From positions 68,132,659-68,196,658 of the forward strand of contig CM049313.1 of the NCBI GenBank assembly GCA_026874595.1: a stretch of 64,000 bases of DNA, read 5' to 3'. The position numbers and the translations under genes are program-made. Below are positions 24,301-54,521 of this stretch, in pieces (position 1 is the first letter of the stretch; every line of letters starts with the position of its first letter). Below the pieces are notes generated by a model. It saw only the letters and a list, made by a program, of their open reading frames with translations, was not told the origin of the DNA and did not search any database. Source of the DNA: Sipunculus nudus (lineage: Eukaryota > Annelida > Sipuncula > Golfingiida > Sipunculidae).

Positions 24301-27300
24301 CAACAAACATCTGCTACCATGTCTAGAATATGATCATCATTATGATGTCATGTCAGGATGAGAGACAGTTTGTTCTTGTCATAAGCCAAGCAACTGTGGA
24401 GATCACCCATTTATGATGTCACTGTGCTTGGAAATATGTACTCTTCATGCACATGAAGAGATTCCAGACATCCCTATGGCAAAGAGCCCCATGAAAATGA
24501 GTTACCAGGCTTGTTTGCTGTCAATCAGGACTAATGTAACAACATTGGCTCTGGACACTCCTCACTGGGCTGGTATCTTTTTCTGGCAACGGATGCACAG
24601 CTACGATAAAATAGTCTTAAAGTCATAAGAGGTGGATGAAGCAGGAACTAAGTAAAAGGGGAATAATATATTATTTAACAAGAAAACATAGGAAATATAG
24701 GGAGCAAGCTGGAGTGTTGGGACATTAATGGACATGCATACTTACAAACATATGTGTATTTAAGTGTTGATAGAACTTATTTTACAGGGAATCTTGGAGC
24801 TGTTAACCAGCTTAGATGAACTTGTACCACTGATCAAAGCTGCATCACAGGGAACTCTTCTGAGTGTCAGGACCTCATTTGTGGAGACCTCTAGTGCCAT
24901 TCTCAGGAACTACCATTCAGCTCTTAACAAGGTACTGGCTGTATCTCTGGAAAATGCATTCTTTGGCTTTATTTGAAGATTTCTGTTAAATGGCTTCCAT
25001 CAGTGTACTCATGAATCAGAGTTGATATTAATGTTTTCAACATTTTTCACCTTCTGTACCTTATTAATGGATGCAAAAGGTATGATCTTTGGCATCATCA
25101 GTTATATTAACAGTAATATCTCATACAAAAAATCATTTTGTGGATTCTTTGCCTGAAAAAATCTGCATCCGTTAGGTATGTTTCCATGTGCGCATATATG
25201 CATGAAATTGCAGACTAATATTTTGGTACAATGGATCAAGCAGGCCTTCCACAAAAAGATGCTGAAGTGACATCATTTTATCATGAATCACTGAGTTCAT
25301 GCAGCAGACCCTATGGGTGAAAATTGCTCTTGTGGCGATTTTCATGCATATACTAACCCATATATGCTGAAGAGCACATGAAAACACCCCAGTTACCAAA
25401 TCATATGAGAGATTTTTCACCAATATATGCATATACATGCACATGGAAACTCCCCTACAAATTTGAATTGTGTTATGAGAATAGAAAGTAATGTGAACAG
25501 TTTCACTCCTGACCTTAAACTTCTTAATACATGTGTGGGAATAGGCTTTAGAGTGGTGATGCCATAATTATCAAATTCATAATATTTTATAAACATTTCA
25601 TTTCATGGCTTCCTGCACAGAATACCCACTATCAGTTATATATAAAGAGTATTTGAAAAGTTGGATAGAGTTAAATAATGTTTTCATAAACTTTATTTCT
25701 GCAGAGAATGCTTTGAAATTAAGTTGCCACGAATGCCTACTTGTGAACAAAGTAAAGTTACTAGAATAGTTTCCACTATGTCATGATGTGAATCACTGTC
25801 ATTTTCCCAGCTGTATGGTGGACACCGGACTTCTGTCCCTCCAAAAGACTTGCTTATGGCACTGTCAACAGCAGTCTACATCAGAAACCATATTCACTTT
25901 TACGATGGGGTGCTCAGCTCAGAGGAAAACAGGTAACATTTGTTCCTTTACATTCTTCATCAGGTACACTAAACTGCATGTGATGATTTTTTTTTGGGTT
26001 TGATGAACAGTGAATACAGGATATGACACTTATTAGGCTATTTGATAAGCTTAACTGTGAATTAACAGTTGAACCTGTCTAAGTGTCTATATTCCATTCT
26101 ACTACCCTTTTCCATCTGTTTATTTGTGATAATTTTTAGCTCAGCTGACTATAAGTCATCTGAGCTATAGTCATGGTCCATTGTCCGTCATCCGTCCGTC
26201 TGTCCGTCCGTCTGTCCGTAGATGTGGCATGTTTTGCAACCGTAAGACCTAGGAATCCAAAATTCCGCATAATGTTAGATGTCCCCAAGATCTCCTACCA
26301 AGCCGAAAACTGGGTCTTTGCGACTGCGTTCCTTTGAGAAATTAAGAAAAAACCTAAATTTTTTATTAAAAACCTATTTTCACACTTCAGGACTGCCTAA
26401 AATCAAAACCATCCATCTATTTTTTCTCACATTTACCATAAATCATCCTCTATATAGTTTCTATGTACATGCCAGAAATTAGGTCTGTATTATATAACTT
26501 AAAAAAGTTATGGGCCAAAACATAATGCATTTTGTGAATAATCAGGAAAGAAATTTGATCACTTAACACAAAACTTGTTTGGGCTAAGCACTTTTTTTCC
26601 AGTTATATTACTTTTATAAATCAAAATTAAAATGTATACCCAAAATTAGATCAAAATCTTTTAAATTTTTGTAATATTGGCAAAAATAAAAAATTTGTAC
26701 CTTAAATTTTGCCCAACTTTGACCACGTTTTTTTCCTGTAACTGCTGTGGATTTAATTTTCAAAGCATGTTTTTGTTAGCATTTCAACAGTTAACACCAA
26801 AAATTTGAAACCAGTTGATCAAAAACTGTAGATTTTATACAAATTTTCAAGCACCATGTCACATATTGTTTACATCAAGCTAGTGTTATGCAGTTTGCTA
26901 GAGCTCAGCTCCCCAGCTTCAGCTCTAAGTTCCTTAAATTTGGCATACAGTTTGATGTCTCCAAAATCCCCTATCATGCCAAGAATTTGGTCGCTTGGAC
27001 ATAATTCCTTTGAGATATTAATGAAAAACTTCATTTTTCCATTAAAAACCCATTGTTACACTTTAAGACTGCCTTATATCAAAACCACTGACCTGACTTT
27101 GATCATATATAATATACATATTTTTCTATACATTCGTTATGCACATGCCAGAAATGATGACAGTAATGCCTATTTGTATCCGCCAAAATGAAGTTTTTCG
27201 GATACTATGTTTATGACCGGGTTCCGCTGCCGCTGCCACGTTCGTTTCCGGAGAACTCCTCTGAGACTACTGGATGGATTTTTCCAAAACTTACACAAAT

Positions 27301-30300: not shown

Positions 30301-33300
30301 GGTGTTCGGATGAACGGCCCTCCACTGTACCTGAAATTCGGCATGCGTATACATCCTGCATAGCTTTCTTGATTTTATGACAGGTGGGGCCACCTACATT
30401 CACGTTCATGCTGTAGACATCCATGCTTATATCTCCTGACTCAATCAGGAAAAAAATTTTACACAAATGTAGCCCTTGGATAGCTTTATAACATACACAC
30501 AAATGGTGGCCCCACCTGCAGCCATTTTTGCACAGCGTCCATCTGTTTGTCTGCCTTGGGTTAAATCACTCAGATCTCTGCAGTGGTTTGACTAAATTAC
30601 CTGTAATTCGGCATGCGTATACATCCTGGATAGCTTTCTTGATTTTATGACAGGTGGCAACAGCTTCATTCAAGTTCCCACTGCAGACACTAATGCTTAT
30701 ATCTCCGGACTCATTTGACCAATCAGGAAAAAAAATTTACACAAATGTAGCCCTTGCATAGCTTTATCACATACACAAAAATGGTGGCGCCACCTGCAGA
30801 AATTTTTTGCACAGCGTCCATCTGTTTGTCTGCTGTGGGATCGCTCATATCTCTGCAGTGGTTTGACTTTTCCACCTGAAATTTTGCATGTGAATACATC
30901 TTGGGTAGTTTCTCGTTCAAATAACAGGTGGCACCACCTACAATCATGTTTATGTGGCAGAGATCCATTCTAATATGTAACACAATTAACTCTATTTCCC
31001 CTTGCCACTCAATCCATGCCTCACTTCACCCGTCCCACTCTGATTTTGGCGGATACAAGTAGTCGCTTGTCGACTACCCATATTCTAGTTTTTTAAGTTA
31101 TGGGCCCAAATATAGTGCACTTTTTAAAAAATCAAGAATATATTTACTCACCTTAGATGAGAATTGCTGAAGCTGGAGACTTTTTTCAGGAATATAACTT
31201 TATTTTAATCAAGATTCAATTGTTTACCCAAAATTAGATCTGAATTTTGCAAGTTATTCAAGTTATTAGCATAAATAAAAAATCAATACCTTAAATTTTG
31301 TCCAGCTTTGGCAATGGCACGTTTTTTCCTGTTAGCACTGTTGATTAAATTTTCACAGCATATATACATAAGGATTTAATCTTTTAAAATCTGAAATTTC
31401 AAAGAAATTTCGATTGGAAAGAATAGTTTTTATTCATGTTTTCATACACCATGTCAAGTGTTGTTTACATCTAGCCCACCTAGTAGTACAGCCTTCACTT
31501 GCATTATGTAACCCACCCCAGGCAGCTTGCCTTGGGTCAGCTTGGCCACTACCAGCAGGCTTCCCCTCTGCCCTGCACTCCCCCCCCCCCCCCAGATGGT
31601 GCATAAACTAGATGAATGTTATTATTTTCTGTAATTGATTCATTCTTATTCTAGGCTATGCTACATTTTAGATTTTGTTTTGTACCACTAGGGTTACAAT
31701 GAATAAAGTGTACATTTAATTGTTTCCACAAAGTGGTGTATTGCTATGAAAGTGTGAATGTTCATGAGATAAGTAATTCCTTACTTCAGAGGAGTAAAAA
31801 CTTCACCAGGTGTGAAGTTGACTATTAATTCGAGTAATAAATTAAAACTGGGATAGTAATTAGCACAATGATATTGTTTGTCCCTCATTCAACCAACAGT
31901 GTGTATACTTTATTTGAAAAGATGTTTATCAAATTGTTTTATAAAATTTACTGAATCTTTTATTTTATTTTGGTGAATAAAATTAAGCATGTACTGAAAA
32001 CTCCAATGTGCAAAACTTTTTAATAGTGATTCAAGGAATATTCTTGTAGATGCCATATTGTAGCATTATTATCTTTTAAATTCAGTTTAAACATTTATGA
32101 TTGAAAAATAATAAAATATATGTGTATGCATAATATGACCCAATATGAGCTACACTCTGGATATATGATGATTGCAACTTTTGCAACAATTCTAATATTT
32201 TAACTTATATTTTCAGTGTTTTTAATACAAATTTATAAAACTTGTAAATAAAAAAAAAATAATCAGATAAAAACTATTTTAATGGAAAAAGTGGATATGC
32301 TTAAATAATAGGCTTATATATAAACTTAAATGAATTATTCCCTTGAAAGTGAAATAAAGGTATTAGTCCATTCTGTCCACTGGCCTGTCCGTCTGTAAAT
32401 TTTTCATATGCATCACAGTATCACAAAACTTTTACTGTTTTTCTCCATGACAGTCTTGTCAGAGTATTAGTTTGCAATCATATATTTAGAACTTTACTAT
32501 AACCAAGTAGGAGGGCCCCTTTCCTCTTAGCTTTTCATATTTTTATATAAATGAAAAACATTACAATAGAATATTTCTACATCCACCTTCGTGCTGCCCT
32601 CACTTTTCCCTTCTCTGAACCCCATCCCAAAGTCAGCCTCAGTAAGCAAGAACAAGATGAATCAGATATATACATGATACTTTAATATTTTGTATAACTA
32701 TTCGTCCATAGGTACCTATGTACATGCCAGAAATTATGTCAATATTGTGTAATATGTAGATAGTGGGCATCACAATAATGTACCTTGTCAAGACTAAAGA
32801 GATATTGTGTCATACAGTCACAAATTCATAAATCACTTCATCAGCATAGTTAATCATAACATCATATCTGTCAAATTGAAAGCTTGCAGACTACCATACA
32901 CTTTAGATCCTTAAACAAATAGCCTTATCATCATTCTACTACTGCTTATTACTGCTGTCATTGCATTCATATTTGCTCAAATATATCACAGTTTTCAACC
33001 CCTCCTAAATAAATAAAAAATAAACCACTATATTTGACTCTATTAATCCATCAGTCAGGTAATTTCATTTATCATTTACTCACATATTACATTACATTCC
33101 TTTATAATAGCCCAACATGTCCATGATATTCATAAGCTTTATCGACTCGATATAGTATCACAGTGGAGAAACATTTATAGTCCAATCACGATCAGCTGAG
33201 CGCCGTGACCAATGGGTCCCTTGTTTTTCAGCAAGCGTCCATTCAGCATATTGTACTGTCAGGGTCAGGACCTGTGTGACACCATCTCTATTGTGTATTT

Positions 33301-36300
33301 CAGCAATCATTCATTCAACATATTGTACCGCCAGTATCAGGACCTGTGTGACACTATCTCTGTTGTGAATTTCAGGAAGTATTCATTCAGCATATTGTAC
33401 TGCCAGTATCAGGACCTGTGTGACACAATTTGTTTTGTGTATTTCAGCAAGCGTTCATTCAGCATACTGTACCACCAGTATCAGGACCTGTGTGACACAA
33501 TTTGTTTTGTGTATTTCAGCAAGCGTTCATTCAGCATACTGTACTGCCAGTATCAGGACCTGTGTGACACAATTTGTTTTGTGTATTTCAGCAAGCGTTC
33601 ATTCAGCATACTGTACCGCCAGTATCAGGACCTGTGTGACACCATTTCACAGCAGATTGTACAGAGAAACATACACCTCCTGTCCACAAGTCTCCTCCAG
33701 GACCTTGAGAGTCATAATTGGCAAGACTCCAAAGATTTCTTTGAGGTAACTTCACCAATAATTGTGTGAATTTGAAAAATAAAATAACCCCCAGGCTGCC
33801 ACAAGTAAATATCATTGGTTAACAGTTATGCTTCAATGGCAACATTAAGTTGTTTGTTGTCAGATATTCAAAGAGATATTATTGATGCATCGGTTTATTG
33901 ATTTATAACCAGCTACAACATAAGTATCACAATATAATTATCATGCATCAATTTTCTGATATTTTTGTGAAACATAATTGAATTTTATTTAATGTAACAA
34001 TTAATGTTTAATTTTATTCAGGGATTGAAAATGGAGGGAAGGTTTATACAATATACCATGTTTGTTTTCTGATAGACCATGTTCATTCTGTCACATTGTC
34101 AATCTTTGTTACATTATATACAATATTTCCTGTTATAAAAAGATATGTGATCTTGTATTTTACTGTAAGACCAAACAGAAAACTTAATAATTCTATTGAT
34201 TGCCACTCTATTATTTGTGGATCAAATTTTTTTAAGACCTGGTCCTTAATAATGTTGCTAATTTGTGCTAATGCAGAAATTCCCTTTTAGAACTCTTAAA
34301 CGTATGGAAAAAGGAATGATTTTTTTATGGAGCTTATACACCATTTCTAGAATCGAGGCAAATTTTGTATTTTATAGGCTAACTGCCCAAATTCCACATT
34401 GTGTCTCAACTGGTAAAGAGATAAAATGTCCCTGCTCATGCCATCATTTTGTGGCCTATGTCTGTAAAACAATATTTTTGTTTGTGGGTGGCCATAATAA
34501 GTATAATGAAAATATTGTAAAATATGCAGCAATAAACCTTGAGCTATAACAGTATGAAAATACCTAATTAGGTAGCTATCTAGGTGGCACATAAGTATCC
34601 CTAGATTATAGTGTTGTTGTAATGTGGAATTGTAATGTGGAATTACCTGTGTTTATATCTACAGGGAGAAAGGTGCTCATTCTGCATACAGATGTGGTCG
34701 TTACATATGACAGCTCTCCAACATGACCTCTGGAGAGTAAGCCCGCCCCGTATGGCCCAGGTCATGTACAGTAACGTTCTGCAGGAATCCATGTCACTGC
34801 TGTCAGCTCGCTACTGTAAGGTGAAACCATCATACAGGAGAACGCCTCAGTTCAGGTATGTTCAGAGTATCATAAAACCAGCAAGGTTCGATAGAGATAT
34901 ATGATAATTATCAGCTAAGTCACTATATGAAGAGATTTGTTTGCAGCTCCAACCAACTTAGTATCTCTAAATGAAGCACCCCTTCTGATAGCAGTTTAAT
35001 TGGTTGTTGGTGTTGTTCAAATTTTAGCAAAATATATCTTGTTGTGCCTGTACTTTTGTGTATGTCATAAAAGTGACATATTCAGGTCAAGCAAACGTTT
35101 TCCAAATCTTATTATATCAGTTATAATATAACATAATTGCCTGTGAAACTAATGTTAATATAGATTTTACATAAAATGAGCCCAACTCATGGAGGAATTA
35201 CATTTTTCCTATATATTTTACCACTAAAAACATGAGGTTGTGTGATTTGTTCAAAAACTGTTGGCACATCTATGAGCACTGTCAATTTGGCAGGGACGTC
35301 ACACACTGGGGAATCCCTTGTGACTAAAAATTCTAGATCTCAGTAAAAGCACAGTATTTCTGCCACTGTCAGTCCTAAATTTTCAGCTAAGAATAAAAAC
35401 ATAATGCATTACTAGATCTGAGTTGTTTATAAAAATTCAGTCAGTGATGTCACATGTGTATGAATCAATCTAATCAGTGCAGGGTCTGGGTTCTGCATGA
35501 AAACCTTCACACAACAAACACGTAGATTAGGTTTACTTAACCTTCACACATTGGGTATACTAAATATTCATGAAATAGAGTGTATTCTCCTGAAGGTATT
35601 ATGGTATCCATGAATATTTTGTTCTAAATCATTTTGCTCACTCCTTTACAAAGAAGAAAAAACTGGCACCATACACAATCAGTGGCAGGAAACAAACAAA
35701 GCATATACGCCACCTTGTTGCCATGATGCACAAATTCACAAATCAAGATTTATGAAGCTATTAACTAGTATTTTAGTGTAGGCAGAAGCCAGTATTGATC
35801 ATAATAATAAATGACTGTAAACTTTTGGGAAAAATATTTGATGCGATCTTTCCAGGCTTGATATCACTACAATCCTGGTGTGTATGTCAGAGATGTTATA
35901 CCCAGCTTGTGGTGGTGTAGGCCAGTACCTGAACCCCAGCATGTCAGAGCAGCCACACTTCACTATACACAACTCCTGCTGCAGTCTCCTCATGGCCCTG
36001 GCTGTAGTGGGGGCACCATTAGATGTTCTGTACAAGTAAGTAACACAACTCCTGCTGCAGTCTCCTCATGGCCCTGGCTGTAGTGGGGGCACCTTTAGAC
36101 GTTCTGTACAAGTAAGTAACACAACTCCTGCTGCAGTCTCCTCATGGCCCTGGCTGTAGTGGGGGCACCATTAGATGTTCTGTACAAGTAAGTAACACAA
36201 CTCCTGCTGCAGTCTCCTCATGGCCCTGGCTGTAGTGGGGGCACTGTTAGACTTTCTGTACAAGTAAGTAACACAACTCCTGCTGCAGTCTCCTCATGGC

Positions 36301-39300
36301 CCTGGCTGTAGTGGGGACACCATTAGACGTTCTGTACAAGTAAGTAACACAACTCCTGCTGCAGTCTCCTCATGGCCCTGGCTGTAGTGGGGGCACCATT
36401 AGACGTTCTGTACAAGTAAGTAACACAACTCCTGCTGCAGTCTCCTCATGGCCCTGGCTGTAGTGGGGACACCGTTAAACGTTCTGTACAAGTAAGTAAC
36501 ACAACTCCTGCTGCAATCTCCTCATGGCCCTGGCTGTAGTGGGGGCACCATTAGACGTTCTCTACAAGTAAGTAACACAACTCCTGCTGCAGTCTCCTCA
36601 TGGCCCTGGCTGTAGTGGGGGCACCATTAGACGTTCTGTACAAGTAAGTAACACAACTCCTGCTGCAGTCTCCTCATGGCCCTGGCTGTAGTGGGGACAC
36701 CGTTAGACATTCTGTACAAGTAAGTAACACAACTCCTGCTGCAGTCTCCTCATGGCCCTGGCTGTAGTGGGGACACCATTAGACGTTCTGTACAAGTAAG
36801 TAACACAACTCCTGCTGCAGTCTCCTCATGGCCCTGGCTGTAGTGGGGACACCGTTAGACGTTCTGTACAAGTAAGTAACACAACTCCTGCTGCAGTCTC
36901 CTCATGGCCCTGGCTGTAGTGGGGGCACCATTAGACGTTCTGTACAAGTAAGTAACACAACTCCTGCTGCAGTCTCCTCATGGCCCTGGCTGTAGTGGGG
37001 GCACCGTTAGACGTTCTGTACAAGTAAGTAACACAACTCCTGCTGCAGTCTCCTCATGGCCCTGGCTGTAGTGGGGGCACCATTAGACGTCCTGTACAAG
37101 TAAGTAAAACAACTCCTGCTGCAGTCTCCTCATGGCCCTGGCTGTAGTGGGGACACCGTTAGACGTTCTGTACAAGTAAGTAACACAACTCCTGCTGCAG
37201 TCTCCTCATGGCCCTGGCTGTAGTGGGGGCACCATTAGACGTTCTGTACAAGTAAGTAACACAACTCCTGCTGCAGTCTCCTCATGGCCCTGGCTGTAGT
37301 GGGGGCACCATAAGACGTTCTGTACAAGTAAGTTACACAACTCCTGCTGCAGTCTCCTCATGGCCCTGGCTGTAGTGGGGGCACCATTAGACGTTCTGTA
37401 CAAGTTAGTAACACAACTCCTGCTGCAGTCTCCTCATGGCCCTGGCTGTAGTGGGGACACCGTTAGACGTTCTGTACAAGTAAGTAACACAACTCCTGCT
37501 GCAGTCTCCTCATGGCCCTGGCTGTAGTGGGGGCACCATTAGACGTTCTGTACAAGTAAGTAACACAACTCCTGCTGCAGTCTTCTCATGGCCCTGGCTG
37601 TAGTGGGGGCACCGTTAGACGTTCTGTACAAGTAAGTAACACAACTCCTGCTGCAGTCTCCTCATGGCCCTGGCTGTAGTGGGGGCACCGTTAAAAGGTT
37701 CTGTACAAGTAAGTAACACAACTCCTGCTGCAGTCTCCTAATGGCCCTGGCTGTTGTGGGGGCACCGTTAGACGTTCTGTACAAGTAAGTACCACAACTC
37801 CTGCTGCAGTCTGCTCATGGCCCTGGCTGTAGTGGGAGCACTGTTAGTTGTTTTGTACAAGAAAGTAACCAGTTATGTTAGTCATGTGCGCGGACTTGGA
37901 CTCAAGTCCTTATATTGGGACTGGGACTTGCATATGAGGAACTTTAACAATGACTTGTACTTGTAAGGACTCTATAAAACAGGCTGTGTCCATCTAGAGA
38001 CCAATATATTAAAACTGTATTTTCAAATATTATAAAGACATATATGTGCGAACTACTGACAGAATATTACAAAAGTATGTATCAAGCTTTGCTCAACATC
38101 GGGAGCTATAAATGTAATTAACCTTTATAGTAAAAGCATGTGTGAACTATAACTTAATAATATACATGATAAATAGAAATTTCCTTTTTAAATTGGTCTT
38201 GTACTTGGACTTGGGTTCCAACTGGTTCTGACTCAGATGTGGACATGAACTGGAACTTTAAGGGATCAGACTTGGACTTGAGTAGCCTGGACTCAGACTT
38301 GGACTCGAGTGGCCTGGACTCAGACTTGGACTCGAGTGGCCTGGACTCAGACTTGGACTCTAGTGGCCTGGACTCAGACTTGGACTCTAGTGGCCTGGAC
38401 TCAGACTTCAACTTGAGTGGCCTGGACTCAGACTTGGACTCTAGTGGCCTGGACTCAGACTTGGACTCTAGTGGCCTGGACTCAGACTTCGACTTGAGTG
38501 GCCTGGACTCAGACTTGGACTCGAGTGGCCTGGACTCAGACTTGGACTTGAGTGGCCTGGACTCAGACTTGGACTTGAGTGGCCTGGACTCAAACTTGGA
38601 CTCTGACTAAGATGGTGTCGACTCCACTACATCACCGTATATAACAGAAGCTACAGAGGAACACTACAGGACAGCTTAATCTTTTTAAATAATTTTATTT
38701 AATAAAATTATTTGAATAAAAAATCAAATATGTCATTGGTCAGCACATATTACCTAGAATATAAAAACCATGTTTTTGAATCTGTGCCCCCTCCCGGCAA
38801 CCAAAGAGAGCTTCACTGAGCATGGCTCAAGGGATTGTAGGACTACACTGCCGGTCATGGCTGGAGCAAAAGTATTTCACCGCTCCATTCCTCCAACAGC
38901 AAATATTTGCAGTAAATGGTAATAAAGTGTGTTAATTCTGTGCTTATAAAAACTACTGTACTCAAATCTAACAGCTTAGTTCATGACATTATGATCCAAG
39001 TTCGGAAATGGACATATTCTCTGGAAGGTTCACTCATGCTCTGTTTCACACCTTTATTTATAGATAACATGCGACCATGGGGTTTTAAACAGGGGTTACT
39101 GATGATTTCAAGGGCCTGTGGTTAAACTTAATGTTGAAGATTGCTAGTTGGGAAAAAAAAAATAGTCTCAGCGGAAAAACAATGATTTTTTATGAATTTG
39201 GTCATAAAACAAGTTATGACCTTCAGGTTATTTCTAGCAATGTGTATTGAAAACCCTCAGATTCCTGTAGTTATAACATTATTATGATCATATGGAGACC

Positions 39301-41260
39301 TATTTCCTTATTTAAGAGACTTTGCCATTAGATGGCTGTGTATATACCTTCAGTTATGAAATGATTGTTTTGACAACTTTTCTTGTTATAGTGAATGTAA
39401 GATCTCTTTTATAGTGAGTGTAAGACATCTGTGTGAACTGAAAATATATAAAAAATAGATTTTATCTGCCTCCACACTGACCATTTTAAATTAATGTTTA
39501 CTTAATTTTTTATTTAATTTTGTTTTTCAGAATATACAAGAGAGGCTTTTCTGACCCTCGGAGGTCAGATAATGCTACATTTGAAGGGGACAAGAAGGGA
39601 TACCCTGGTCACTGGTTACCATGGATACGCCCTGGTTTGTTAAAACAAGGACAACAATGGTAATTTGCATGATGCTGTATTGTGTCTGAAATATTACGAG
39701 CAGCTTCAATGAAAAAGTAAAGCTTAGGAAAATATTGTTGTTCATAAAATGATAATAAATTGTACAGATAATTAAAATTGAGCCTAAGTGGTGATTTTAT
39801 AGAAGGTTGCACATTTTATGATCACATTCCGTGAGCTATAAACCCAAATTTGCTTTGCTGAATATTTTATTCTTAAGGTAACTAAACCACTATCAGGCAA
39901 TAATTGTTGCACATATGTAAGACATATGATTCCCTAGAGGTTTGGCTATTATTTGATGCATATTGATTAGCTTCATCTGTGTTAATTGATTATGGTCTTA
40001 AATTTATATGATGTAAGAAATTTGAAAATTTACTCATAATTACCTGTAATTGTTATTATTTAGGCATTTATTGTCATCGAAACTCTAGTACACAAATGGT
40101 GAAGTTAAATATTTAAAATGGAAGGTATAAGGTTTCTTCTTTTTCAATTTATAAAGTTTTTATTTTTGCAAACCAACGTACTCCATTTAAGGTAAAAATC
40201 TTGAAAATTGAATGACTTTAAGCCAGGGTAAATATATTTGACCTTTTTCACATGGCATCTGAGGCCCAACTGTTTGAATCAATGTAGATTGCAGAAGCTG
40301 GTTTTATGTTTGCATATGGCAAATAATCCAAAATAGTTGGGGCCAAAACCTCGAATCCAAGTGCACAGAATCATACCTCAAAAATAATGACATCATATGA
40401 AATGTGATATTACTTCAATGTATACATGACATGGTAGGAGAGGTTACACCTGCTTTGACCAAAACAGATCTGATTCTGATTTTATTGCTATGTGAAAGCT
40501 AAGTCAGCATTAAAAATGGATTCAATCTACTGTTGATTATCACAGGATTGCCAAAAATTAATTTACCATAATGCACATTTGATTGCCATGTGAAAACCCA
40601 ATGCAGATTGAATATAGATTGATATCAGTATGAAATGTTTTGTACTTGCCATTTAAAAAGGGGCATTTGATTATTTGCACAATAGAGACTGTTACTTTTC
40701 TTTCAGTTTTGATGACATGCAGGCAACCAATGCTCTCTACATCCAGTTACAACTGATGGCAGCTCAGCCATGCATCAACTACGGTCTACTTCTACAAGTT
40801 AGTTCACAGTTCAGCCTCAGATCACAACAAAATAACAGTGTTGCCAGGGGTCAGGGAATTTTATTAAAAAGTCAGGAAATTATGTGATAATTAGGGGAGC
40901 TGCGAAAAAATCAAGAAATTTTTAATAGCTATTGTGATTGCAGTTGATTATCAGATTGAAAGGCCTTTAAAATCTAGGTTAATCATATAGAGCATGGATA
41001 CACAACATATACTAAAATCAATAATTGATATGCAAATTTATAAAGTTCAATATTTAGGAGAGCACTGGAAAAATTTGGTATAGTTTTAAAAAAAAAGGCT
41101 TTTCTTATCCCCCCCTTCAATATGCCAACTCTTTTCCCATTTTGTATTCAGCTATTTTTACAGCATCAGTCCTTGTGGAATGTTAGGCAGAACTTTCATT
41201 GCCCCTGTAATTGTATCCGCCAAAACGAAGTTTTGCGGATACTATGTTTTTGACCGGGTT

Positions 41261-41291
<31 letters not shown>

Positions 41292-44200
41292 GTTCGTTTC
41301 CGGAGAACTCCTCTGAGACTACTGGACAGATTTTTCCGAAACTTACACAAATTATCGGGTCACATGTGAACTGGTGCCTAACCAAGTGACCTTGACCTCT
41401 GACCTTTCGTCTCTGCCCAGCGTCCGTTTGTGCGTCTGTTTACACACATAAACCCATATATCTCGGGAACCGTTTGACCGATCCGGAAAATTTTTTTACA
41501 CAAATGTAGCCCTGGGATAGCTTTATAACATACACAACAAAAGGTGGCGCCACCTGCAACCATGTTTGCACAGTGTCCATCTGTTCATCTGCCTGGAGTT
41601 AAAATCACTCATATCTCTGCAGTGGTTTGACTAATTCACCTAAAATTTGGCATGCATATACATCCTAGATAGCTTTCTCAATTTTATGACAGGTGGCGCC
41701 ACCTACATTCACGTTAACGCTCCACACATAAACCCATATATCTCGGGAACCGTTTGACCGATCCGGAAAAAAATTTTACACAAATGTAGCCCTGGGATAG
41801 CTTTATAACATACACAACAAAAGGTGGCGCCACCTGCAACCATGTTTGCACGGTGTCCATTTGTTCATCTGCCTGGGGTTAAAATCACTCATATCTCTGC
41901 AGTGGTTTGACTAATTCACCTAAAAATCGGCATGCATATACATCCTAGATAGCTTTCTTGATTTTATGACAGGTGGCGCCACCTTCATTCACGTTAACGC
42001 TCCACACATAAACCCATATATCTCGGGAACCGTTTGACCGATCCGGAAAAAAATTTTACACAAATGTAGCCCTGGGATAGCTTTATAACATACACAACAA
42101 AAGATGGCGCCACCTGCAACCATGTTTGCACAGTGTCCATTTGTTCATCTGCCTGGGGTTAAAATCACTCATATCTCTGCAGTGGTTTGACTAATTCACC
42201 TAAAATTCGGCATGCGTATACATCCTAGATAGCTTCCTTGATTTTATGACAGGTGGCGCCACCTACATTCATGTTAACGCTGCAGACATCCAAGCTCATA
42301 TCTCGGGAACCGTTTGACCGATCCGGAAAAAAATTTAACACAAATGTAGCCCTGGGATAGCTTTATAACATACACAACAAAAGGTGGCGCCACCTGCAAC
42401 CATGTTTGCACAGCGTCCATCTGTTTGTCTGCTGTGGGATAAAATCACTCATATCTCTGCAGTGGTTTGACTTTTCCACTTGAAATTTTGCATGTGTATA
42501 TATCTTGGATAGTTTCTCGTTCAAATAACAGGTGGCGCCACCTACAATCATGTTTATGTGGCAGAGATCCAATACTAATATTTTACATATGTAACTTTAT
42601 ATCCCCTTGCCACTCAATCCATGCCTCACTTCACCCGTCCTTCTCTAATTTTGGCGGATACACGTAGTCGCTTGTCGACTACCCGTATTCTAGTTTAACT
42701 TTTAGCTTAAAAATATTTCATATTGAGGAACTGCATCTATTGTATGATTTTTGTCTTCAATATTTTTTTCTGATAAAGTGTTTGTTGGATTAAAATGATG
42801 TTTTTAAGTCCAAATATGAAATTACTGTTTAGGTTTCTCCTTGAAAAACCAACTGAAAGTCAGGGGAAGGTCGGGGATATTTTTTTAAGTGTTGGCTGCT
42901 TACAACTCTAAATAAACCTGACTGTTCTACAGAATCACCACTCCCATTTTCTTTGGTTAAATGACTCTCAGGAACATGGATACATGGTGATACAAAGTCA
43001 CTATTGTATTGTCATCATCAGATATCCCTGTATTAAAATGTTCACTTTATATGACCATTTAAGAGGAAGTCTGACATTGAGTTACAGACCTTTAGCATAA
43101 AATGATAGTTCATGTAAGACAAAACATCATTTGTCAGTAATTAGTTAATAGACATCTGATTTGATAACCGCTGCTTAATCAAACTGATTGAAAGTGTGGT
43201 TTTATAATTCATGCAGCATGGAGGCAGATTCATGAAAGGCAAACTTGAATTAAAAGAACAATGACTTTGAACTCTATAGCGTCTAATACTGCTAATATGT
43301 ATCGTATCATATCATAATTAAGTAAAGTATCATAATATGTATCATATTGTGTATCATATCATGAAGTATCATGATAAGTATTATATCATTATCATGAGTG
43401 AAGTATCATGATATGTATTGTATCATATATCATTATCATGCGTGAAGTATCATGATACGTATTGTATCATATATCATTATCATGAGTGAAGTATCATGAT
43501 ACATATTGTCTCATATATCATTATCATGAGTGAAGTATCATGATAAGTATCATATCATATATCATTATCATGAGTGAAGTATCATGATAAGTATCATATA
43601 TCATTATCATGAGTGAAGTATCATGATATGTATTGTATCATATATCATTATCATGAGCGAAGTATCATGATATGTATTGTATCATATATCATTATCATGA
43701 GTGAAGTATCATGATATGTCTTGTATCATATGTCATTATCATGAGTGAAGTTTCATGATAAGTATCATATATCATTATCATGAGTGAAGTATCATGATAT
43801 GTTTTGTATCATATATCATTATCATGAGTGAAGTATCAAGATATGTATTGTATCATATATTATTATCATGAGTGAAGTATCATGATATGTATTGTATCAT
43901 ATATCATTATCATGAGTGAAGTATCATGATATGTATTGTATCATATATCATTATCATGAGCGAAGTATCATGATATGTATTGTATCATATATCATTATCA
44001 TGAGTGAAGTATCATGATAAGTATCATATATCATTATCATGAGTGAAGTATCATGATATGTATTGTATCATATATCATTATCATGAGCGAAGTATCATGA
44101 TATGTATTGTATCATATATCATTATCATGAGTGAAGTATCATGATATGTCTTGTATCATATGTCATTATCATGAGTGAAGTTTCATGATAAGTATCATAT

Positions 44201-47200
44201 ATCATTATCATGAGTGAAGTATCATGATATGTTTTGTATCATATATCATTATCATGAGTGAAGTATCAAGATATGTATTGTATCATATATTATTATCATG
44301 AGTGAAGTATCATGATAAGTATCATATCATATATCATTATCATGAGTGAAGTATCATGATAAGTATCATATATCATTATCATGAGTGAAGTATCATGATA
44401 TGTATTGTATCATATATCATTATCATGAGTGAAGTATCATGATATGTTTTGTATCATATATCATTATCATGAGTGAAGTATCAAGATATGTATTGTATCA
44501 TATATTATTATCATGAGTGAAGTATCATGATATGTATTGTATCATATATCATTATCATGAGTGAAGTATCATGATATGTATTGTATCATATATCATTATC
44601 ATGAGCTAAGTATCATGATATGTATTGTATCATATATCATTATCATGAGTGAAGTATCATGATAAGTATCATATATCATTATCATGAGTGAAGTATCATG
44701 ATATGTATTGTATCATATATCATTATCATGAGCGAAGTATCATGATATGTATTGTATCATATATCATTATCATGAGTGAAGTATCATGATATGTCTTGTA
44801 TCATATGTCATTATCATGAGTGAAGTTTCATGATAAGTATCATATATCATTATCATGAGTGAAGTATCATGATATGTTTTGTATCATATATCATTATCAT
44901 GAGTGAAGTATCAAGATATGTATTGTATCATATATTATTATCATGAGTGAAGTATCATGATACATATTGTCTCATATATCATTATCATGAGTGAAGTATC
45001 ATGATAAGTATCATATCATATATCATTATCATGAGTGAAGTATCATGATAAGTATCATATATCATTATCATGAGTGAAGTATCATGATACATATTGTATC
45101 ATATATCATTATCATGAGTAAAGTATCATGATATGTATTGTATCATATATCATTATCATGAGTGAAGTATCATGATACGTATTGTATCATATATCATTAT
45201 CATGAGTGAAGTATCATGATACGTATTGTATCATATATCATTATCATGAGTAAAGTATCATGGTATGTATTGTATCATATATCATTATCATGAGTGGAGT
45301 ATCATGATAAATATCGTATCATATATCATATCATGAGGCAAGTATCATGATATGTATTGTATCATATATCATAATCATGAGTGAAGTATCATGATATGTA
45401 TTGTATCATATATCATTATCATAAGTGAAGTATCATGATATGTATTGTATCATATATCATTATCATGAGTTAAGTATCATGATATGTTTTGTATCATATA
45501 TCATTATCATGAGTTAAGTATCAAGATATGTATTGTATCATATATTATTATCATGAGTGAAGTATCATGATATGTATTGTATCATATATCATTATCATGA
45601 GTGAAGTATCATGATATGTATTGTATCATATATCATTATCATGAGCGAAGTATCATGATATGTATTGTATCATATATCATTATCATGAGTGAAGTATCAT
45701 GATAAGTATCATATATCATTATCATGAGTGAAGTATCATGATATGTATTGTATCATATATCATTATCATGAGCGAAGTATCATGATATGTATTGTATCAT
45801 ATATCATTATCATGAGTGAAGTATCATGATATGTCTTGTATCATATGTCATTATCATGAGTGAAGTTTCATGATAAGTATCATATATCATTATCATGAGT
45901 GAAGTATCATGATATGTTTTGTATCATATATCATTATCATGAGTGAAGTATCAAGATATGTATTGTATCATATATTATTATCATGAGTGAAGTATCATGA
46001 TACATATTGTCTCATATATCATTATCATGAGTGAAGTATCATGATAAGTATCATATCATATATCATTATCATGAGCGAAGTATCATGATATGTATTGTAT
46101 CATATATCATTATCATGAGTGAAGTATCATGATATGTATTGTATCATATATCATTATCATGAGCGAAGTATCATGATATGTATTGTATCATATATCATTA
46201 TCATGAGTGAAGTATCATGATATGTCTTGTATCATATGTCATTATCATGAGTGAAGTTTCATGATAAGTATCATATATCATTATCATGAGTGAAGTATCA
46301 TGATACGTATTGTATCATATATCATTATCATGAGTGAAGTATCATGATACATATTGTCTCATATATCATTATCATGAGTGAAGTATCATGATAAGTATCA
46401 TATCATATATCATTATCATGAGTGAAGTATCATGATAAGTATCATATATCATTATCATGAGTGAAGTATCATGATATGTATTGTATCATATATCATTATC
46501 ATGAGCGAAGTATCATGATATGTATTGTATCATATATCATTATCATGAGTGAAGTATCATGATATGTCTTGTATCATATGTCATTATCATGAGTGAAGTT
46601 TCATGATAAGTATCATATATCATTATCATGAGTGAAGTATCATGATATGTTTTGTATCATATATCATTATCATGAGTGAAGTATCAAGATATGTATTGTA
46701 TCATATATTATTATCATGAGTGAAGTATCATGATATGTATTGTATCATATATCATTATCATGAGTGAAGTATCATGATATGTATTGTATCATATATCATT
46801 ATCATGAGCGAAGTATCATGATATGTATTGTATCATATATCATTATCATGAGTGAAGTATCATGATAAGTATCATATATCATTATCATGAGTGAAGTATC
46901 ATGATATGTATTGTATCATATATCATTATCATGAGCGAAGTATCATGATATGTATTGTATCATATATCATTATCATGAGTGAAGTATCATGATATGTCTT
47001 GTATCATATGTCATTATCATGAGTGAAGTTTCATGATAAGTATCATATATCTTTATCATGAGTGAAGTATCATGATATGTTTTGTATCATATATCATTAT
47101 CATGAGTGAAGTATCAAGATATGTATTGTATCATATATTATTATCATGAGTGAAGTATCATGATACGTATTGTATCATATATCATTATCATGAGTGAAGT

Positions 47201-50200
47201 ATCATGGTATGTATTGTATCATATATCATTATCATGAGTGGAGTATCATGATAAATATCGTATCATATATCATATCATGAGGCAAGTATCATGATATGTA
47301 TTGTATCATATATCATAATCATGAGTGAAGTATCATGATATGTATTGTATCATATATCATTATCATAAGTGAAGTATCATGATATGTATTGTATCATATA
47401 TCATTATCATGAGTTAAGTATCATGATATGTTTTGTATCATATATCATTATCATGAGTTAAGTATCAAGATATGTATTGTATCATATATTATTATCATGA
47501 GTGAAGTATCATGATATGTATTGTATCATATATCATTATCATGAGTGAAGTATCATGATATGTATTGTATCATATATCATTATCATGAGCGAAGTATCAT
47601 GATATGTATTGTATCATATATCATTATCATGAGTGAAGTATCATGATAAGTATCATATATCATTATCATGAGTGAAGTATCATGATATGTATTGTATCAT
47701 ATATCATTATCATGAGCGAAGTATCATGATATGTATTGTATCATATATCATTATCATGAGTGAAGTATCATGATATGTCTTGTATCATATGTCATTATCA
47801 TGAGTGAAGTTTCATGATAAGTATCATATATCATTATCATGAGTGAAGTATCATGATATGTTTTGTATCATATATCATTATCATGAGTGAAGTATCAAGA
47901 TATGTATTGTATCATATATTATTATCATGAGTGAAGTATCATGATACATATTGTCTCATATATCATTATCATGAGTGAAGTATCATGATAAGTATCATAT
48001 CATATATCATTATCATGAGCGAAGTATCATGATATGTATTGTATCATATATCATTATCATGAGTGAAGTATCATGATATGTATTGTATCATATATCATTA
48101 TCATGAGCGAAGTATCATGATATGTATTGTATCATATATCATTATCATGAGTGAAGTATCATGATATGTCTTGTATCATATGTCATTATCATGAGTGAAG
48201 TTTCATGATAAGTATCATATATCATTATCATGAGTGAAGTATCATGATACGTATTGTATCATATATCATTATCATGAGTGAAGTATCATGATACATATTG
48301 TCTCATATATCATTATCATGAGTGAAGTATCATGATAAGTATCATATCATATATCATTATCATGAGTGAAGTATCATGATAAGTATCATATATCATTATC
48401 ATGAGTGAAGTATCATGATATGTATTGTATCATATATCATTATCATGAGCGAAGTATCATGATATGTATTGTATCATATATCATTATCATGAGTGAAGTA
48501 TCATGATATGTCTTGTATCATATGTCATTATCATGAGTGAAGTTTCATGATAAGTATCATATATCATTATCATGAGTGAAGTATCATGATATGTTTTGTA
48601 TCATATATCATTATCATGAGTGAAGTATCAAGATATGTATTGTATCATATATTATTATCATGAGTGAAGTATCATGATATGTATTGTATCATATATCATT
48701 ATCATGAGTGAAGTATCATGATATGTATTGTATCATATATCATTATCATGAGCGAAGTATCATGATATGTATTGTATCATATATCATTATCATGAGTGAA
48801 GTATCATGATAAGTATCATATATCATTATCATGAGTGAAGTATCATGATATGTATTGTATCATATATCATTATCATGAGCGAAGTATCATGATATGTATT
48901 GTATCATATATCATTATCATGAGTGAAGTATCATGATATGTCTTGTATCATATGTCATTATCATGAGTGAAGTTTCATGATAAGTATCATATATCTTTAT
49001 CATGAGTGAAGTATCATGATATGTTTTGTATCATATATCATTATCATGAGTGAAGTATCAAGATATGTATTGTATCATATATTATTATCATGAGTGAAGT
49101 ATCATGATACATATTGTCTCATATATCATTATCATGAGTGAAGTATCATGATAAGTATCATATCATATATCATTATCATGAGTGAAGTATCATGATAAGT
49201 ATCATATATCATTATCATGAGTGAAGTATCATGATATGTATTGTATCATATATCATTATCATGAGCGAAGTATCATGATATGTATTGTATCATATATCAT
49301 TATCATGAGTGAAGTATTATGATATGTCTTGTATCATATGTCATTATCATGAGTGAAGTTTCATGATAAGTATCATATATCATTATCATGAGTGAAGTAT
49401 CATGATATGTTTTGTATCATATATCATTATCATGAGTGAAGTATCAAGATATGTATTGTATCATATATTATTATCATGAGTGAAGTATCATGATATGTAT
49501 TGTATCATATATCATTATCATGAGTGAAGTATCATGATATGTATTGTATCATATATCATTATCATGAGCGAAGTATCATGATATGTATTGTATCATATAT
49601 CATTATCATGAGTGAAGTATCATGATAAGTATCATATATCATTATCATGAGTGAAGTATCATGATATGTATTGTATCATATATCATTATCATGAGCGAAG
49701 TATCATGATATGTATTGTATCATATATCATTATCATGAGTGAAGTATCATGATATGTCTTGTATCATATGTCATTATCATGAGTGAAGTTTCATGATAAG
49801 TATCATATATCATTATCATGAGTGAAGTATCATGATATGTTTTGTATCATATATCATTATCATGAGTGAAGTATCAAGATATGTATTGTATCATATATTA
49901 TTATCATGAGTGAAGTATCATGATATGTATTGTATCATATATCATTATCATGAGTGAAGTATCATGATATGTATTGTATCATATATCATTATCATGAGTG
50001 AAGTATCATGATACATATTGTATCATATATCATTATCATGAGTAAAGTATCATGATATGTATTGTATCATATATCATTATCATGAGTGAAGTATCATGAT
50101 ACGTATTGTATCATATATCATTATCATGAGTGAAGTATCATGATACGTATTGTATCATATATCATTATCATGAGTGAAGTATCATGGTATGTATTGTATC

Positions 50201-52912
50201 ATATATCATTATCATGAGTGGAGTATCATGATAAATATCGTATCATATATCATATCATGAGGCAAGTATCATGATATGTATTGTATCATATATCATAATC
50301 ATGAGTGAAGTATCATGATATGTATTGTATCATATATCATTATCATAAGTGAAGTATCATGATATGTATTGTATCATATATCATTATCATGAGTGAAGTA
50401 TCATGATATGTTTTGTATCATATATCATTATCATGAGTTAAGTATCAAGATATGTATTGTATCATATATTATTATCATGAGTGAAGTATCATGATATGTA
50501 TTGTATCATATATCATTATCATGAGTGAAGTATCATGATATGTATTGTATCATATATCATTATCATGAGCGAAGTATCATGATATGTATTGTATCATATA
50601 TCATTATCATGAGTGAAGTATCATGATAAGTATCATATATCATTATCATGAGTGAAGTATCATGATATGTATTGTATCATATATCATTATCATGAGCGAA
50701 GTATCATGATATGTATTGTATCATATATCATTATCATGAGTGAAGTATCATGATATGTCTTGTATCATATGTCATTATCATGAGTGAAGTTTCATGATAA
50801 GTATCATATATCATTATCATGAGTGAAGTATCATGATATGTTTTGTATCATATATCATTATCATGAGTGAAGTATCAAGATATGTATTGTATCATATATT
50901 ATTATCATGAGTGAAGTATCATGATACATATTGTCTCATATATCATTATCATGAGTGAAGTATCATGATAAGTATCATATCATATATCATTATCATGAGC
51001 GAAGTATCATGATATGTATTGTATCATATATCATTATCATGAGTGAAGTATCATGATATGTATTGTATCATATATCATTATCATGAGCGAAGTATCATGA
51101 TATGTATTGTATCATATATCATTATCATGAGTGAAGTATCATGATATGTCTTGTATCATATGTCATTATCATGAGTGAAGTTTCATGATAAGTATCATAT
51201 ATCATTATCATGAGTGAAGTATCATGATATGTTTTGTATCATATATCATTATCATGAGTGAAGTATCAAGATATGTATTGTATCATATATTATTATCATG
51301 AGTGAAGTATCATGATATGTATTGTATCATATATCATTATCATGAGTGAAGTATCATGATATGTATTGTATCATATATCATTATCATGAGCGAAGTATCA
51401 TGATATGTATTGTATCATATATCATTATCATGAGTGAAGTATCATGATATGTCTTGTATCATATGTCATTATCATGAGTGAAGTTTCATGATAAGTATCA
51501 TATATCATTTTCATGAGTGAAGTATCATGATATGTTTTGTATCATATATCATTATCATGAGTGAAGTATCAAGATATGTATTGTATCATATATTATTATC
51601 ATGAGTGAAGTATCATGATATGTATTGTATCATATATCATTATCATGAGTGAAGTATCATGATACATATTGTATCATATATCATTATCATGAGTAAAGTA
51701 TCATGATACGTATTGTATCATATATCATTATCATGAGTGAAGTATCATGATACGTATTGTATCATATATCATTATCATGAGTGAAGTATCATGGTATGTA
51801 TTGTATCATATATCATTATCATGAGTGGAGTATCATGATAAATATCGTATCATATATCATATCATGAGGCAAGTATCATGATATGTATTGTATCATATAT
51901 CATAATCATGAGTGAAGTATCATGATATGTATTGTATCATATATCATTATCATAAGTGAAGTATCATGATATGTATTGTATCATATATCATTATCATGAG
52001 TGAAGTATCATGATATGTTTTGTATCATATATCATTATCATGAGTGAAGTATCATGATATGTATTGTATCATATATCATTATCATAAGTGAAGTATCATG
52101 ATATGTATTGTATCATATATCATTATCATGAGTGAAGTATCATGATATGTATTGTATCATATATCATTATCAAGAGTGAAGTATCATGATATGTATTGTA
52201 TCATATATCATTATCATGAGTGAAGTATCATGATATGTATTGTATCATATATCATTAACATGAATGAAGTATCATGATACATTTTGTATTATATATCATT
52301 ATCAAGAGTGAAGTATCATGATATGTATTGTATCATATATCATTATCATGAGTGAAGTATCATGATATGTATTGTATCATATATCATTATCATGAGTGAA
52401 GTATCATGATAGGTATTGTATCATATATCATTATCATGAGTGAAGTATCATGATAAGTATCATATCATATATCATTATCATAAGTGAAGTATCATGATAT
52501 GTATTGTATCATATATCATTATCATGAGTGAAGTATCATGATATGTATTGTTTGATATATCATTATCATGAATGAAGTATCATGATACATATTGTATTAT
52601 ATATCATTATCATGAGTGTACTATCATGATATGTATCATGAAACTTCACCCCTGATATGATACATGATATGATACATATCCTTTATTCACAGATAAACTG
52701 TTTTTAACAAAGGCTTGTAAAGTCCTGGATTTGATTGTTGCTTAAAGCTGCTATTGCCTCAGTCCTTGTCAAGAATAATTTATATATATTCAGTAATGCA
52801 GTATGTTTGATCATAAGGATATCATTGAAAATGGATCAAATTCTGTATATTCACAATCACCATGTTGAGAATAATGTCACGTTTTGTATACTTTCTTAGG
52901 TTATCAAAATAA

Positions 52913-52950
<38 letters not shown>

Positions 52951-54521
52951 AAATAAATAAAATATATAAAATATATAAAATAAAACTTTCCATTTTTTGA
53001 AAATTCATCCCAAAGAACAAGAAAAAAATTGCCCACTTGCACAATATTTTTTGTCCCAGAGTCTCTAATAAAACAGTATTGTTTTTTAGCTCAGGGACCA
53101 CTGGTGGATTGTTATGAAATATGGTACATACCTCTCCAATTTAAATTTATAACTGAGACATATACTATTATACATCCATGTGAGAACAAATATTCTGTAC
53201 TTGTAACTGTTACCACCTATAAACACTGTCCTTTTGGCTGAGGGCTTTTGTCAGCTTCTGCTGATATTCAAGTTTTGATTTGTTTTATCTGACAGGGCTA
53301 GGTATGGGCTTTGAAACTTCTACAGTTTCTACTATAAGACAATAATTATTCTCCATACCAGTGCTAGCCTCTGTCTCTTTTGTGCTTGAGTGGATGATAT
53401 AATGGCCTCTGCACATCTTATGACCAGGCCATGCTTTACCTTGGAATGTTGTAAGGGGTTTTTGCACAGTTCATTCACATTGGCCCATTCTTATTTCTCT
53501 AATCCATTTCAACTTTCCAAAAGAATTTAAAGTTTCCTTGAATGGTAGTGAATGAAGTTGAAGTCTCGGGGGAAAAGATTGACCCTGATATGGATTTTCC
53601 ACCAGATTTATCAAAATTAATATATTTTCTGTCTTGTAATAGTGAAACTTGTTCTGTTATGTTCAATATAGACATCTGATTCACTCATGTCATGGGCGAT
53701 CCTTTAAATGACAAACATATTTTACAGGCATTGTTGATGAAGGATTACACTCTTCCCATCATGCTTCTGACAGAACTGGCTCAGCCTAGTGCTGCCCCCT
53801 GTGGGAGGGCATCAATGTCAAGAGAAACTCAGCTGGAAATCTTGACTTCTTTCTTTGAGGTTTTCCTGCAGTGTGACTCATTTCCAGGGGCACTGGCACA
53901 AGTCATCCTTCCTGTGATTGAGAGGTTTGTTGCAATAAATTGTTTTATTTGCTTCATATTAGCAAAGTTTGAATTTCTTTTTCAGTGTTTTGCAACAGTA
54001 CACTTTTCAAGGTCCCACCCTACAGTAAACTATGAAGGAGTATATCCCATATTTGATAAATTATTGTTATGTTGGTAAAAACATTTTATTTTCTGTTATA
54101 TTATTCTATGATTCCCGTATGGGAATATTACAATTTGAATCCCTCATGAACAAAAAGCTGACTACAGTATTTTGTCATGATTCAGTGATGATTTTCTTAA
54201 ATATTTTACTTAAATATTTTACTTAAAGTAACAAAATATTAAATTTCAATCATGCTCAGATTGACTTCTTTTAAATAGAAGCATTTTGTAAATTTCATTT
54301 GTAATTAACTATGACTAATGCCTGCCTTTAAAGAATGCTGTTTCTTTTAGGATTTTTTTTTCTCAGAAATCTGGTGTTTTTCTTATAGAAAACACAGCAG
54401 TTTAATATGCATGTCAATGTCTCTTATTACCCTGCCAGCGAATTAAAGTCTGTCATACCAGAAACAAATGGATTGTATGCCAAATTTATTTGCTGCAAAT
54501 GTTAATGTAACATGTAGAGTA

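Follow-up and report, generated by a model that had tools for sequence, protein, structure and literature searches.

A 25-unit array of copied splice donors in a DUF4495 gene, probably an exon-edge minisatellite of the mirage type

Introduction

Tandem copies of exon-intron boundaries are known from amphioxus, where they were named 'mirages' in Adh3 (PMC3087553), and the mirage loci reported there include globin, Adh3, troponin C and PGBD5 (PMC3087553, PMC3902484; troponin C as cited in the latter). Adh3 data and globin reverse transcription PCR suggest that regular splicing is undisturbed, and the copies could act as cryptic sites; the edges of a mirage cluster escape homogenisation, and mirages have been proposed as a route of intron gain (PMC3087553). 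Here we analyse a stretch of 64,000 nucleotides (contig CM049313.1, 68,132,659 to 68,196,658, forward strand), called the window and numbered from its own first letter. It contains a gene that matches DUF4495 (Pfam PF14906), which we take to be the KIAA0825 family. One exon of this gene is followed by a long tandem array of copies of its 3′ end and splice donor (the donor array), and another exon, two exons upstream, is preceded by copies of its acceptor edge (the acceptor array). Both are compared here with the mirages.

The globin mirages of amphioxus, BflGb6 and BflGb9, resemble the donor array in their head-to-tail boundary copies, in AG and GT being kept in many units, in a homogenised interior and in the exclusion of the cluster edge, and either exon edge is copied in them, the acceptor edge in BflGb6 and the donor edge in BflGb9 (PMC3087553). 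However, their units measure 150-160 bp in BflGb6 (6 and 3 units in two haplotypes) and 157 bp in BflGb9, compared with 25 units of 76 bp and six of 72 bp here, and two opposite-edge arrays within one gene distinguish the present locus from them (PMC3087553). Units crossing a boundary also occur in the Adh3 mirages of Branchiostoma floridae and B. lanceolatum, where they are 10-72 bp long and show length and somatic instability, with splicing reported as undisturbed (Canestro et al. 2002, as cited in PMC3087553 and PMC3902484). Similarly, the 60-bp and 108-bp repeats of lancelet PGBD5 form arrays over splice sites of two adjacent exons in the same gene, but these have fewer copies and are described as imperfect; the copy numbers differ between assemblies (2 vs 7 and 3 vs 6), and an annotated extra exon composed of repeats was deemed less plausible by the authors (PMC3902484).

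In the intron gain of potato RdRp, as here, a duplicated boundary brings ready-made splice signals, but there a single duplication turned into a true intron, whereas the present copies are known from genomic sequence alone (PMC4974935). Variable internal tandem repeats in human segmental duplications are likewise boundary minisatellites tied to cryptic splice sites and new introns; unlike the present arrays, they are differences between paralogues with transcript support, with an average unit of 30 bp and 4 copies, and alternative transcripts were found for 66% of the intron modifications (PMC2812944). In earthworm metallothionein, repeats lie inside an intron and exon-4 duplications were not seen in the transcript, and the available text of that paper was not found to describe repeats across a splice site (PMC12783039). 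Neither a 25-copy donor array nor any array in a KIAA0825 gene was found in the open-licence papers searched, which include part of those naming KIAA0825, and 25 units is the highest number among the mirage cases with a copy number found there.

Results and Discussion

The donor array and its host gene

Tandem Repeats Finder (TRF), run on the whole window, reported positions 35967-37869 (plus strand) as a tandem array with a period of 76, 25.0 copies, 96% matches and a score of 3482, and copies of the edge of the exon at 35856-36035 were recovered by BLAST of that exon against the window. Read unit by unit, the array consists of 25 head-to-tail units; all are 76 bp long except unit 23, which has 77 bp, and each is made up of 69 nt of the exon's 3′ end and the first 7 nt of the intron. 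The array of 25 copied exon ends and donors reported in a preliminary description of this DNA is therefore real. That description also gave every unit an acceptor, a 51-nt segment and gtaagt, which proved too general. GT is present in 24 of the 25 units, as GTAAGT in 23 and as GTTAGT in unit 19 (the hexamer also seen at the donor assigned to exon 40707-40797), while unit 25 reads GAAAGT. The internal acceptor CTGCAG occurs in 24 units, with CTGCAA and hence no AG in unit 8; the segment between acceptor and donor is 51 nt in 24 units and 52 nt in unit 23, which causes a frameshift; and in unit 18 the segment contains an in-frame stop (TAA). Consequently 20 of the 24 intronic units retain both splice signals (AG and GT), the 51-nt length and an uninterrupted frame and are potential in-phase pseudo-exons, and units 8 (AG), 18 (stop), 23 (length) and 25 (GT) are defective as such. 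Individual units have private variants, and there is one indel.

The exon at 35856-36035 belongs to a chain of eight exons (24788-24931, 25811-25932, 33592-33745, 34665-34855, 35856-36035, 39531-39659, 40707-40797 and 53728-53924) that was joined using the first donor of the donor array (donor 1) and the last acceptor of the acceptor array. The chain has 402 codons and zero stops, and it matches PF14906 in one stretch, from profile position 2 to 318 of 319 (E = 7.5e-89, 298.4 bits, curated cut-off 25). On the plus strand, splice sites, frame and DUF4495 match all support the coding exon 35856-36035 (the earlier 'exon 11'), in which unit 1 of the donor array forms the 3′ end and which leaves in phase 2, and the coding exon 33592-33745, whose start lies within the final acceptor-array unit. 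The coding exon between the two arrays (34665-34855, plus strand) is supported in the same way, and its edges have no copies in the window. Downstream on the same strand follow the coding exon 39531-39659 (the earlier 'exon 12'), which is entered in phase 2 and is in frame after donor 1, and the coding exon 40707-40797, to which the DUF4495 match extends; both are supported by frame and by that match. The window is judged to be eukaryotic from these spliced exons. Human KIAA0825 has been linked to polydactyly in published papers.

Among the donors of the array, donor 1 (CAA/GTAAGT, hexamer at 36036-36041, plus strand) alone leads to an open reading frame when no pseudo-exon is used. As the preliminary description had it, reading past this donor meets a stop directly (TAC AAG TAA). 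It agrees with the U1-complementary consensus at 9 of 11 positions, the top value among the eight exon donors compared (range 5-9). An exon ending at the last GT donor, in unit 24, would measure 1929 nt, compared with 180 nt for the ordinary exon.

Neighbouring units, including donor 1 and the acceptor of unit 2, are separated by a spacer of 25 nt. Since this is too short for an animal intron, the earliest target of donor 1 is unit 3, through an intron of 101 nt, and the earlier remark that splicing would have to skip units is correct. So is its arithmetic of entry and exit in phase 2, wherever the unit has 51 nt. The acceptor had also been called credible, which is fair, because its 10 pyrimidines in 16 positions fall inside the range of 8-12 seen in the eight exon acceptors compared. 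An extra AG lies 20 nt 5′ of this latent acceptor; since two of the eight exon acceptors have even nearer AGs (14 and 19 nt), it gives no argument against the site.

Structured RNA in the donor array was considered and rejected, as the RNA of four units (304 nt, -106.8 kcal/mol) folds no better than shuffled sequences (z = -1.10), 13 of 100 of which reached an energy equally low or lower.

An opposite-edge array upstream

The acceptor array, which is absent from the preliminary description, lies two exons upstream of the donor array at 33222-33647 (plus strand) and consists of six units of 72 bp, each with about 20 nt of the intron's 3′ end and the first 52 nt of the exon (TRF, comparison of the exon with the window, and frame). 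The sequence tgtatttcag is found in four of the six units. Possible exon starts are 33232, 33304, 33376, 33448, 33520 and 33592, and all six acceptors enter the exon in frame and free of stops.

Copied edges were found for two of the 11 exon stretches compared with the window (33592-33745 and 35856-36035), and three of the 11 had rough ends only. The comparison also returned the end of a dispersed repeat next to 14310-15240, and exon 39531-39659 had two matches of 26 bases. The probability that at least two units span one of the 16 mapped exon edges by random placement was 0.003 (0.012 with 16 random edges added), a post hoc figure that depends on the choice of TRF rows: 9 of 37 were used (periods 21-76), and shorter and longer ones were dropped, the longer because they looked transposon-derived or restated the same array.

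The left edge of the acceptor array (33176-33231) adjoins the end of a dispersed repeat with the motif TGACCNATGGGTC, which occurs at nine plus-strand places in the window, and the pyrimidine tract of the first acceptor may be partly derived from this element. By eye, open frames near 471-2359 and 31372-33206 resemble two copies of one longer element.

Sequence change within the arrays

Divergence in the donor array was scored over the first 68 nt of each unit, leaving out unit 23 because of its indel. Unit 25, at the far edge, is the most divergent, with 8 differences compared with 0-3 in the other 23 scored units. The acceptor array has the same polarity: the three units farthest from the exon body differ at 5-6 of 52 nt and the nearest two at 2, so divergence is highest away from the exon body in both arrays of the gene. 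Both arrays show concerted evolution with a divergent far edge, as would follow from protein selection on the exon-side copy, homogenisation of the interior and exclusion of the far edge. The changes have spared neither the splice signals (the acceptor of unit 8 and the donor of unit 25) nor the frame (units 18 and 23).

Across 24 units, with unit 23 omitted, the distinct changes in the 51-nt segment comprise 11 synonymous, 6 non-synonymous and 1 stop. Synonymous changes are therefore 11 of 18, against an expectation of 29-34% (binomial tail 0.006 at 0.30 and 0.013 at 0.33). Part of this excess may come from changes inherited from the selected exon and from CpG changes; when only changes confined to a single one of units 2-24 (again without unit 23) are counted by hand, 6 of 10 are synonymous. 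The extra copies of the acceptor array have 9 non-synonymous and 4 synonymous distinct changes, and their freedom from stops would arise by chance with a probability of 0.23, so protein-coding use of that array shows no sign. Taken together, the substitution patterns give no firm evidence that the copied exon pieces are used as coding sequence, although the synonymous figure of the donor array leans the other way.

A higher-order repeat in the donor array was also considered, but there is only a weak hint of two-unit copying: odd and even lags between units differ weakly (p = 0.024), and eight single lags give p = 0.07-0.83. Such a periodicity would fit block copying.

Origin of the arrays and alternative explanations

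We consider the donor array to be an exon-edge minisatellite, or mirage, with donor 1 productive and the copies mostly spliced out, and put the probability of this reading at about 0.8. The tandem units of both arrays span a genuine splice site, with exon sequence on one side and intron sequence on the other, and both arrays match the description of mirages in every sequence feature examined. One edge copy is also the authentic exon of an intact-looking gene, judging from the open chain and its uninterrupted DUF4495 match; that this chain is obtained through donor 1 and the last upstream acceptor, and that unit-specific variants are found throughout an array whose far-edge unit diverges most, supports the same reading. 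The like polarity of the acceptor array and the damage to splice signals and frame in some units add to this. Amphioxus mirages offer further support: either exon edge is copied there with this anatomy, the edge of the cluster is likewise excluded from homogenisation, and the published results are said to suggest regular splicing (PMC3087553).

As for the origin of such a mirage, the 76-bp segment would have been duplicated in tandem, and then expanded and homogenised within the intron by unequal exchange or slippage. Coding selection would hold the exon-side copy, and the far edge would escape homogenisation and drift. In the RNA, donor 1 would be the productive site, since its use yields the exon at its usual length of 180 nt, and the remaining 24 units would normally leave with the 3.5-kb intron.

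Several points weigh against this interpretation. It is not self-evident that 24 GT donors in near-equal exon context are harmless. When equal donors compete in a minigene, the one nearest the intron can be preferred, and both position and the levels of splicing factors reportedly shift donor choice either way (minigene studies by Reed and Maniatis in 1986 and by others). The latent acceptor resembles the gene's own acceptors in its pyrimidines, and the synonymous excess of the donor array is not predicted by a purely neutral array. Furthermore, boundary repeats that differ between human paralogues reportedly go with new introns, which they may form, and often with alternative transcripts (PMC2812944). 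Leakage to extended, stop-containing products or an occasional 51-nt inclusion is thus possible.

The preliminary description had offered two functions, a donor decoy and a length-variable protein module. As a poison or decoy array, the extra donors would capture U1 small nuclear ribonucleoprotein or pair with the exon's acceptor, and array length would tune the full-length product, each donor past the first extending the exon over the TAA and leading to decay or a truncated protein. The near-identical exon context upstream of 24 GT donors, 23 of them GTAAGT, agrees with this, as do the leading U1 match of donor 1 and the stop directly behind it. However, the donor of unit 24 would require the 1929-nt exon, GT has been lost in unit 25 and the hexamer changed in unit 19, and published mirages reportedly leave splicing undisturbed (PMC3087553, PMC3902484); we regard a decoy as unlikely. 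It is quite improbable that the locus acts as a splicing rheostat, in which 24 near-equal donors, the first alone productive, compete for U1 and the exon's acceptor, so that output of the DUF4495 protein follows the number of units, itself variable among individuals or cells like that of other mirages, with low-level 17-residue inclusions and the six upstream acceptors adding length variants.

For the protein module, 51-nt units would be spliced in, each adding 17 residues, and the six upstream acceptors would add 24 residues each. The 20 open, in-phase, AG/GT-flanked units, the latent acceptor at 10 of 16 pyrimidines, the six upstream acceptors that are all in frame and the synonymous excess agree with this. 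The canonical product, however, already fills the DUF4495 profile in one stretch. With one pseudo-exon added, the match is divided into two stretches, although their total is 300.0 bits, a higher value that we think is due to the repeat being counted in both stretches, so that the score favours neither product. One additional acceptor copy lowers the score to 292.2 bits, in two stretches, and all six acceptor copies give 282.5 bits, with the best match beginning at profile position 60. Additionally, neighbouring units are just 25 nt apart, one has a stop and one a frameshift, and the extra acceptor copies show the mainly non-synonymous change and the 23% chance of lacking stops given above, so that a module is very improbable. 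The anatomy on which the two functions were proposed was correct save for the four defective units, and positive support for either beyond that anatomy comes to a weak synonymous excess.

The copy number of 25 comes from one assembly, and either this number or the entire array could have been made in assembly. Precedents exist in one amphioxus globin mirage, whose draft-genome version was apparently misassembled (PMC3087553), and in the PGBD5 copy numbers that vary between assemblies (PMC3902484). Nevertheless, an artefact is hardly credible with private variants and an indel in the units and a second, independent array in the same gene; moreover, the globin mirage was rebuilt from trace data (PMC3087553), and the PGBD5 repeats were upheld on re-examination of the reads (PMC3902484).

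The phenomenon itself is already known. The donor array is a long and tidy example of it, more interesting for its opposite-edge partner in the same gene, and a host that is not a lancelet, if confirmed, would widen the range of mirages beyond that found in the available literature. Duplicating a splice site is a classic design in splicing experiments. The donor array is an enlarged natural counterpart of it, in which donors and context are near-identical and position is nearly the sole cue, so that 24 near-equal donors put splice-site choice to a severe test with a clear readout in the stop met beyond the first. The six in-frame acceptors of the same gene provide the reverse test. Transcripts of this gene could reveal how position sets splice-site choice, and whether arrays seed new exons or introns.

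Other repeats and open stretches in the window

The intron that contains the donor array also holds a 27-bp minisatellite (TRF, 38266-38603, 12.5 copies). Its period is a multiple of three, and it lies inside a 145-codon open frame of short peptide repeats (38173-38607). Between two exons of the DUF4495 gene, positions 43382-52636 are occupied by a 9.2-kb AT-rich satellite of about 214 copies of a unit of roughly 44 bp; the G+C content of the window is 35.2%, and 36.8% without this satellite, which is below that of Branchiostoma floridae. Further open stretches on both sides of the chain resemble additional exons of the gene; three of them, searched singly, gave no Pfam match at E <= 0.001. 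Tandem arrays at 7732-8384, 12265-13283 and 41443-42554 have units of 278-280 bp with GGTGGCGCCACC or close variants and are seemingly part of a dispersed element, and runs of GTCCGTCTGTCC are found elsewhere in the window.

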